A stretch of DNA of 64,000 bases, from contig NZ_CP049250.1 of NCBI RefSeq assembly GCF_011046895.1, positions 2,454,501 through 2,518,500 of the forward strand, written 5' to 3'. The notes below the pieces were generated by a model, which was not told where the DNA came from, did no database searches, and was given only the letters and a program-made list of their open reading frames with translations. The translations under genes were made by a program, and so were the position numbers. This document shows, in pieces, positions 48,045 through 50,052 of this stretch; within the stretch, counting starts at the first letter, position 1, and each line of letters begins with the position of its first letter. This stretch comes from Rhizobium rhizoryzae (GTDB lineage: Bacteria; Pseudomonadota; Alphaproteobacteria; Rhizobiales; Rhizobiaceae).

Positions 48045-48062
48045 CGAGATTGGAGAATGAGT

Positions 48063-49532
48063 ATGGCTGCCGTGCAGGAAACGATCGATCAGGTCCGCCA
48101 GATCGATGTTGACCAGTACAAATACGGTTTCGAGACCGTAATCGAAGTCGACAAGGCCCCAAAAGGTCTATCGGAGGAAATTATCCGCTTCATTTCGGCC
48201 AAGAAGGATGAGCCGGAATGGATGCTGGAATGGCGCCTCGATGCCTATCGCCGCTGGTTGACGATGGAGGAGCCGACCTGGGCGCGTGTCGACTACCCGA
48301 AGATCGACTTCAACGATCTCTACTATTATGCGGCACCGAAGAACACGCCCGGCCCGAAGTCACTGGATGAAGTCGATCCCGAACTTCTCAAGGTTTACGA
48401 GAAGCTGGGCATTCCGCTGAAGGAGCAGGAAATTCTTGCTGGCGTGGACAAGCCCCGCGTTGCCGTGGACGCTGTCTTCGACTCCGTCTCTGTCGTGACG
48501 ACCTTCAAGAAAGAACTTGCCAAGGCCGGCGTCATCTTCATGTCGATTTCGGAGGCTGTTCGCGAACATCCGGACCTTGTGAAGAAGTACCTCGGCTCCG
48601 TCGTTCCGACCTCTGACAACTACTATGCGACGCTGAATTCCGCCGTCTTCACGGATGGGTCTTTCGTGTTCGTGCCAAAGGGCGTGCGTTGCCCGATGGA
48701 GCTGTCGACCTATTTCCGCATCAACGAAAAGAACACCGGACAGTTTGAGCGGACACTGATCATCGCTGAAGAAGGCGCTTACGTGTCCTATCTTGAGGGC
48801 TGCACGGCACCGCAGCGCGATGAGAACCAGCTTCACGCGGCTGTCGTTGAACTTGTGGCTCTCGACGATGCCGAGATCAAGTATTCGACGGTGCAGAACT
48901 GGTACCCGGGCGATGCCCAGGGCAAGGGTGGTATCTACAACTTCGTGACGAAGCGTGGCGATTGCCGTGGCCATCGCTCCAAGATTTCATGGACGCAGGT
49001 CGAAACCGGCTCTGCGATTACGTGGAAATATCCAAGCTGCATTCTGCGTGGCGATGACAGCCGTGGCGAGTTCTACTCGATCGCCGTTTCGAACGGCCAT
49101 CAGCAGATCGACAGCGGCACCAAGATGATCCATCTCGGCAAGAACACGTCGAGCCGCATCATCTCCAAGGGCATTGCCGCCGGCGTTTCGCAGAACACCT
49201 ATCGCGGACAGGTTTCGGCGCACCGCAAGGCAACGAATGCTCGCAATTTCACACAGTGCGACTCGTTGCTGATCGGCGACCGTTGCGGCGCACACACCGT
49301 GCCTTACATCGAGGCAAAGAATTCGTCGGCTCAGTTCGAGCACGAAGCGACGACGTCCAAGATCTCGGAAGACCAGCTGTTCTACTGCCTGCAGCGCGGC
49401 ATTCCGGAAGAGGCGGCTATCGCTCTCATCGTGAACGGCTTCGTCAAGGAAGTCATTCAGGAACTTCCGATGGAATTCGCGGTCGAGGCGCAGAAGCTGA
49501 TCGGCATTTCGCTTGAGGGTTCGGTGGGTTGA
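48063..49532 (+). CDS. sufB: Fe-S cluster assembly scaffold SufB
   Basis: 489 residues. SufB forms the SufBCD scaffold that assembles Fe-S clusters with SufC ATPase. [34 protein letters not shown] and [21 protein letters not shown]-like segments are typical. The ATG at 48063 has GGAGA at the right distance; a second ATG at 48057 is 1 nt from it. It is followed by a GIY-YIG nuclease cassette that splits the operon from sufC. Confidence 0.95.
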
Positions 49533-49561: not shown

Positions 49562-49589
49562 CGTCATCCTCGGGCTTGTCCCGAGGATC
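49562..49589 (+). repeat. Left terminal palindrome of the GIY-YIG cassette
   Basis: Contains a 9-bp stem ATCCTCGGG / CCCGAGGAT around loop CTTGT at 49566-49588. The whole 28-bp core 49562-49589 is repeated exactly, in inverted orientation, at 49955-49982. Confidence 0.9.
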
Positions 49590-49603
49590 CGCTGAGGGTT
49601 GCT

Positions 49604-49945
49604 ATGGTCGGATTCGCTTACATGATGTCCGATAAGCCGCGCGGAGTCATATACACTGGTGTTACCTCTGATCTTGCCGGGCGTGCGTGGCAACATCGAA
49701 ATGAGATAACGAAGGGCTTCACCTCGAAATACAATGCCAGGCTCCTCGTTTGGTTCGAAAGGCACCCCAATATTGTGCTGGCCATCCAACGAGAGAAATC
49801 GCTGAAGCGTTATAAACGAGAGTGGAAGATAAAGCTGATTGAAGGGTTCAACCCGACTTGGCTCGATCTTTATGAGGCACTGGATCAAAGGGATAACCCA
49901 TACATGCCGCACCCCAATACGAGGGAGTGGCATCACTACAATTGA
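49604..49945 (+). CDS. GIY-YIG endonuclease-domain protein
   Basis: 113 residues of the UPF0213/YhbQ-like GIY-YIG family. GFAYMMSDKPRGVIYTGVTS carries the two beta strands, WQHRNE the conserved arginine/histidine, and REKSLKRYKREWKIKLIE the catalytic glutamate. Stand-alone proteins of this size are thought to be nucleases. It lies in the 520-bp gap between sufB and sufC, with an exact 28-bp inverted repeat on each side, so it looks like a mobile or REP-like cassette inserted into the suf operon. Confidence 0.88.
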   Translation: MVGFAYMMSDKPRGVIYTGVTSDLAGRAWQHRNEITKGFTSKYNARLLVWFERHPNIVLAIQREKSLKRYKREWKIKLIEGFNPTWLDLYEALDQRDNPYMPHPNTREWHHYN

Positions 49946-49954
49946 ACGACGGTA

Positions 49955-49982
49955 GATCCTCGGGACAAGCCCGAGGATGACG
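49955..49982 (-). repeat. Right terminal palindrome of the GIY-YIG cassette
   Basis: Exact inverted copy of the left 28-bp core: stem ATCCTCGGG / CCCGAGGAT around loop ACAAG, at 49956-49978. It starts 10 bp after the nuclease stop codon. Confidence 0.9.
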
Positions 49983-50052
49983 GACATGGAGCGCTAGAGG
50001 CGCTGAAGGAACGGACAGGCGGCTCTTTAACCGCCCTATGAAGGAAGTGATC

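Follow-up and report, generated by a model that had tools for sequence, protein, structure and literature searches.

Palindromic repeats carrying a CGTC tag were sorted by Di Nocera et al. (2013) into the families CGTC-1 to CGTC-4 (PMC3733652). As described there, CGTC REPs are common in alphaproteobacteria, with the tag lying outside an AT-first stem of 8–9 bp and a loop of 4–5 bases; the elements are found predominantly as head-to-head pairs, apparently with no transposase of their own (PMC3733652). The same authors proposed that dedicated CGTC units may have vanished early, and left undecided whether RAYTs or other transposases act as movers (PMC3733652). The locus described here, which lies in a stretch of 64,000 nucleotides of Rhizobium rhizoryzae DNA (the window, i.e. 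the whole stretch analysed), resembles these elements in its tag, stem, loop and head-to-head pairing, but differs in that its two REPs enclose a GIY-YIG gene, whereas the main text of PMC3733652, from which the term GIY-YIG is absent, names no enzyme for them. Nor does the term occur in passages of PMC12306157 and PMC6006769, and among the matches listed in a search of titles and abstract beginnings in the open literature, no paper joins GIY-YIG enzymes with CGTC REPs; bioRxiv lay outside this search, and an earlier report elsewhere is possible.

With the RAYT (TnpAREP) systems, the GTAG REPtrons and REPINs, the locus shares a small REP-flanked nuclease gene, dispersed gene-less pairs and type-specific repeats, although the RAYT REPtron has a Y1/HUH enzyme and a GTAG tag where we find a GIY-YIG enzyme and a CGTC tag. 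Since enzyme and tag do not fit, the unit is not a RAYT REPtron, and yet, by analogy, appears to work like one. Small bacterial GIY-YIG proteins such as those of UPF0213 (1zg2 and 1ywl) are similar in fold and size to the nuclease of the unit, and to our knowledge no repeat association is known for UPF0213 proteins. GIY-YIG domains also occur in homing endonucleases, and enzymes of the I-TevI type resemble that of the unit in their catalytic domain and in a possible capacity for self-spread; here, however, the unit is intergenic and bounded by palindromic REPs, and no interrupted gene, intron or intein is seen.

Anatomy of the unit and the encoded GIY-YIG protein

The features of the locus are as follows.

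49562–49589, plus strand: left CGTC-tagged REP, with the tag CGTC at 49562–49565, the stem at 49566–49574 and 49580–49588 and the loop CTTGT at 49575–49579 (from the sequence and the family description in PMC3733652)
49604–49945, plus strand: GIY-YIG nuclease gene, 113 aa (from the ORF list, Pfam match, alignment and structure model)
49955–49982, minus strand: right CGTC-tagged REP, an exact inverted copy of the left REP, with its tag outermost at 49979–49982
49562–49982, plus strand: the whole unit, REP–GIY-YIG–REP, 421 bp, in the sufB/sufC interval (from the sequence and the junction comparison)

An earlier note on this DNA had described a 421 bp unit in which two exactly inverted 28 bp palindromes enclose one GIY-YIG gene, and this is read directly from the sequence. 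The left end (49562–49589) is CGTCATCCTCGGGCTTGTCCCGAGGATC, and its exact reverse complement lies at 49955–49982. In each palindrome CGTC comes first and is followed by a 9 bp stem (ATCCTCGGG/CCCGAGGAT) that opens with AT and encloses the five loop bases CTTGT. When up to three mismatches are allowed, the 23-base core has two matches in the window, one on each strand, and 100 dinucleotide shuffles yield none, which rules out a chance origin of the pair. The neighbouring genes, which we take to be sufB (48057–49532) and sufC (start at 50038 or 50053) on the strength of the earlier note and of general background, lie on either side.

The 113-aa product matches the Pfam GIY-YIG family PF01541 (E=3.1e-10, 40.6 bits) above the cut-off of 22.6, in agreement with the identity first proposed for the inner gene, although a search of NCBIfam assigned it to no family. 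In 57 aligned homologues the invariant residues include Y17, R27, H31, E64, K68 and N83, and Y6 is conserved in at least 90 %; we take Y17, R27, H31, E64, N83 and Y6 to be the canonical GIY-YIG catalytic positions. Domain, fold and conserved catalytic residues are thus all those of the GIY-YIG class. An AlphaFold2 model of the nuclease has a mean pLDDT of 86.7, and its best Foldseek match among solved structures is the UPF0213 protein BH0048 (1zg2, E=3.9e-3), with 1ywl eighth, Slx1 chains from E=0.03 and no structure at E≤1e-3. A profile search against the PDB likewise gave 1zg2, 1ywl and UvrC as top matches, with I-TevI weak at E=0.28. Slx1 acts on branched DNA, according to the title of structure 6seh, and the likeness to it would, by analogy, fit nuclease action on a hairpin or cruciform.

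Related palindromes and cassettes in this and other genomes

The genome (six contigs, rated 100 % complete) was searched with a general form of the tagged palindrome, giving 36 exact and seven one-mismatch matches; two of the seven were judged unrelated, leaving 41 palindromes, although the pattern misses more divergent copies such as those at L012. Paired by eye from their coordinates, these form 20 head-to-head pairs and one single. All 20 pairs have a plus-strand copy followed by a minus-strand copy with the tags outside; one encloses the GIY-YIG gene and 19 are gene-less, and in 17 of the 19 the two starts lie 57–58 bp apart. Stem differences between copies are compensated on both sides so that pairing is kept (CC/GG, GC/GC, TC/GA). 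Six REP pairs form one tandem array with a period of 175 bp (G000:C4:3275841-3276800). The dispersed copies for which the earlier note had proposed a search are thus present, and the idea of a palindrome unique to the sufB–sufC site is ruled out.

The palindromes have a CGTC tag beside an AT-first stem of 8–9 bp and a loop of 4–5 bases, as in the description in PMC3733652, and they are repeated in the genome mainly as head-to-head pairs; judged on their sequences, those of the window belong to the CGTC REPs. The 19 gene-less inverted pairs, dispersed and with a short spacer, have the form of REPINs, and the GIY-YIG unit itself is a long, gene-bearing form of inverted REP pair. A search of the genome with PF01541 found one further GIY-YIG frame, of 678 aa, presumably UvrC by its length. 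A RAYT was looked for as a partner of the REPs and none was found, there being no match to PF01797, the family covered by the search and the one that we take to be the Y1 transposase family that includes RAYTs.

Across the genus, homologues of the nuclease are found in 34 of 57 genomes, with 43 matches (three weak ones, in G044, G006 and G010:C6, were left unfetched), and 23 genomes have none. In the genome_contigs collection 166 stretches encode relatives, and the best 80 of these 166, selected by protein similarity alone, were scanned for palindromes. Head-to-head tagged palindromes within 200 bp surround the gene at 49 of the 80 loci and at none of 576 shifted positions, and at least one tagged palindrome lies near the gene at 68 of the 80 compared with 42 of the 576 (eight shifts pooled); at the other 12 loci the detector found no tagged palindrome. 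The figure of 49 is the union of a loosened form of a first detector (200 bp; stem start [AG][TC]) and a 5 bp-stem version of a second. Because this union was chosen after inspecting the flanks of loci that the first detector had missed, the stricter figure is 34 of 80, obtained with an 8 bp stem, the tag [CT][GC]TC and a distance of up to 150 bp, with no head-to-head pair at each of the eight shifts. The second detector (GTCAT, stem 6, long loops, 200 bp) was positive at 12 of 13 rhizobia-like loci and 23 of 67 others. As shifted positions often fall inside genes, where REPs are rare, we added as a control the remaining ORFs of these loci with a length of 100 aa or more: of these 251, two are flanked head-to-head, 17 lie between two palindromes and 111 have one on any side, and we attribute the palindromes near them largely to neighbours that share the cassette's own REPs.

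Outside the rhizobia, the loci whose palindrome was labelled fall under 16 phylum-level names, among them several candidate phyla, although some of these cross-phylum labels are weak, with 5 bp stems and a palindrome on one side only. The rows L049, L053 and L058 probably duplicate the genomes of L020, L021 and L025. The spacing between gene and REP is often short and alike between loci; most loci of clade 1, for instance, have a downstream spacing of 9 bp. In the Planktothrix agardhii plasmid (L203) the homologue has a type IIL restriction-modification gene on one side and the DISARM gene drmA on the other. Phage carriage of the unit was considered and rejected, as there was no match in phages and none was confirmed in viral_contigs.

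Three types of palindrome can be told apart in rhizobia: T1 has a CCTCGGG stem or close variants and a loop ending in GT, T2 has a T1-type stem and a loop ending in GA, and T3 has TTCCTGTG or close variants. The unpaired tail, which in CGTC REPs is mostly CCA, reads CCG and CTA in the REPs of the window and CCA in many T2 and T3 relatives. On a tree of 53 rhizobial nucleases, of which 46 were typed by the nearest palindrome in either orientation within 300 bp (five have none in range and two have another type), the three types require two changes, the minimum possible, compared with a mean of 20.5 on shuffling, and none of 200 shuffles was as low; the tree was made by a quick method, with a support of 80 for the T2 clade and a program warning that long branches meet. 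The match of clade 1 with T1 amounts to a single event, since every T1 member occupies the same orthologous site; T2 and T3 genes are found at various coordinates and contigs. Paralogues within one genome keep their own types, as in G026 (T1, T2 and two T3), G025 (T2 and T3) and G014 (T1 and T3, with a third gene that has no palindrome in range). Across phyla, palindrome geometry requires 17 changes on the tree compared with 46.3 on shuffling, and 13 compared with 20.7 for L062–L128 only; the 8/5 palindromes (five rows) are unclustered. In the Jiella sonneratiae locus L057 one compensatory stem change, CCTCGCC/GGCGAGG, is present in both of the REPs that flank the gene, as if they had changed in concert.

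The numbers of REPs lying away from cassettes lean the same way: T1 copies are higher in genomes with a clade 1 gene (9 compared with 48 genomes, P=0.021) and T2 copies in those with a clade 2 gene (16 compared with 41, P=0.018), these P values ignoring relatedness and resting on hand-entered clade lists and subtracted flanking copies, with a generous subtraction for T2. The swapped combinations of clade and type gave P=0.83 and 0.36, and clade 3 against T1 gave P=0.33, while clade 3 showed the same leaning with T2 (P=0.07). Genus genomes without a homologue can be rich in REPs, for example G056 (18 T1 and 8 T2) and G054 (21 T2), and since many REPs are present in several of them, the gene is dispensable for REP persistence.

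The sufB–sufC site and copies at other sites

Comparison of the sufB–sufC junction in relatives, proposed in the earlier note, finds the unit present in some and absent in others; the junction, at which suf genes normally adjoin according to that note, is variable among relatives and not always tight. The gene is at this site in 9 of the 57 genus genomes. Genome G016 has two T1 REPs around a 69 bp remnant of the gene, G033, G036 and G049 have a REP pair from which the gene is absent, and G018 has an 89 bp junction that shares the right-hand flank and contains no hairpin of 7 bp or more. In many genus genomes the junction is ~250–263 bp long rather than ~62 (e.g. L161, L178 and L180), such junction lengths being given for genomes other than G027 (unparsed) and G004, G046 and G055 (wrong upstream point); in several of the long junctions TGAACGA(A/G)AAGGTCGA comes immediately after the stop of sufB and resembles the beginning of a short conserved reading frame.

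All 22 further close homologues that were checked, including those of Jiella and a Shinella (73 % identity), are also at sufB–sufC, although three of them appear to duplicate others; Jiella belongs to the Aurantimonadaceae according to the tree labels. The insertion is therefore old and fixed rather than a recent jump. Neither of the two outcomes that the earlier note named as refuting is fully seen: the palindrome is not unique, with 41 in the genome, and of the second outcome, fixation at this one site with no other copies, one half is found, the close homologues checked all being at sufB–sufC. For the nuclease gene, dN/dS is 0.03–0.14 in six estimable pairs (two of these, with dS above 2, are unsure), and dS is saturated in 11 of the 12 pairs that involve the window gene; these ratios suggest that the gene at sufB–sufC is under purifying selection. 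The suf copy has apparently been inherited or exchanged together with the suf region and kept intact by selection, and it either still acts on REPs in trans or has taken on a role in the host.

Elsewhere, there are signs of possible movement. The chromosome of Rickettsia sp. MEAM1 has five matches, two of them degenerate, and the three that were compared are ~367 bp copies in unrelated surroundings, 85–94 % identical to one another; the similarity stops 2–7 bp beyond the tags, and the 60 bp flanks agree at only 10–23 positions. A second Rickettsia assembly, which is a metagenome bin, has two copies that show the same pattern (96 % over 351 bp). The Rickettsia copies have no consistent target-site duplication. 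The outer dinucleotides of five of them (L214, L227, L239, L212 and L226) are TA on both sides in three and TA/TT and GA/TC in the others; the TA may be a target duplication, may belong to the element or may be fortuitous, the DNA being AT-rich.

At the junction between fnrL and a response regulator gene in Sphingobium megaplasmids, 11 records match both genes and seven of them have the cassette; eight of the 11 were aligned, and three further full records are 100.0 % identical to TomMM7A. Two records, TomTYG74 and TomTYG64, have instead one collapsed palindrome tagged on both sides, with a perfect 14 bp stem in TomTYG64, and TomTYG72 and TomTYG65 have neither the gene nor this palindrome, although hairpins of other sequence are present. 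A longer unit of ~850–890 bp is seen at two sites in G026 (L191 and L193) and in G027 (L039); that of L191 starts near the tag of a T3 REP and ends inside a T2 REP.

Autonomous element or guest of existing repeats

We favour, with moderate confidence, the view that the unit is an autonomous CGTC-REP element, that is, a head-to-head REP pair carrying the gene for its own partner nuclease. By analogy, the GIY-YIG family is probably the cognate enzyme of CGTC REPs, working on them as RAYT does on GTAG REPs. The parallel with REP/RAYT systems drawn in the earlier note is upheld by the gene-less pairs in the genome, the flanking palindromes far beyond rhizobia, the pairing of clade with type, and the presence and absence of the unit at one site. 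In such an element the enzyme would recognize its own type of REP in folded form, as a hairpin or cruciform, and would cut it at the CGTC tag or close by; the REP-bounded segment would then be copied to a new place by repair or strand transfer. The gene-less REPIN-like pairs would be internal-deletion derivatives served in trans, and the suf copy, as an ancient insertion, may now act chiefly in trans or be partly domesticated.

The main rival, which we regard as possible but rather unlikely, is that a homing-type GIY-YIG endonuclease cuts and inserts into existing CGTC REP pairs that are spread by other means, so that the unit is an invaded pair. The weak profile match to I-TevI points in this direction, as does the ratio of 19 gene-less pairs to one gene-bearing pair in the genome of the window, and copies in different places can arise by homing too. 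Since REPs of the same family are alike anyway, both the pairing of clade with type and the ending of similarity near the tags are predicted equally well. However, the search for the Y1 family revealed no other carrier of REP movement in this genome, and insertion into existing pairs does not readily account for gene-to-REP distances as short and similar as those often seen, for example the 9 bp of most clade 1 loci. Gene-less alleles that lack a same-type REP (G018, TomTYG72 and TomTYG65) also speak against it, although they weigh little, as loss could explain them.

It is more doubtful still that the nuclease is a housekeeping gene, for example in repair, with the REPs gathered beside it as hairpins that function at the level of the transcript. 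The constancy of clade 1 at sufB–sufC, in the window and in 22 of 22 further loci, and the low dN/dS of the six pairs would be expected of a host gene, and a hairpin between operon genes could shape the mRNA. Such a gene should hardly be so patchy, occupying the site in 9 of 57 genus genomes, or be found in cassettes beside genes other than suf elsewhere (e.g. L200 and L204); nor would its palindromes be expected to be clade-specific, or head-to-head flanks to be so rare around other ORFs in the same loci. That an unrelated transposase moves CGTC REPs and the GIY-YIG gene was caught between two of them as an inert passenger agrees with the persistence of REPs in homologue-free genomes, but is very improbable, given the recurrence in many phyla with matched palindrome types and conserved catalytic residues and the description in PMC3733652 of CGTC elements with other transposase genes as few fortuitous associations.

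There is about an even chance that the unit represents a widespread minimal class of mobile DNA, consisting of a lone nuclease of ~100 residues between hairpin-pair ends and serving as the missing engine of CGTC REPs, evolved independently of RAYT, from rhizobia and Rickettsia to Bacteroidota, Ignavibacteriota and candidate phyla. The GIY-YIG enzyme is a candidate for the long-missing partner by which one of the two great families of palindromic repeats in bacteria is spread, and a cognate nuclease would make the question of what mobilizes CGTC REPs testable at the bench. If true, this would mean that REP-type repeats have gained mobilizing enzymes on two occasions, from folds that are unrelated, and would account for the small GIY-YIG genes without an assigned role that are scattered over so many genomes.
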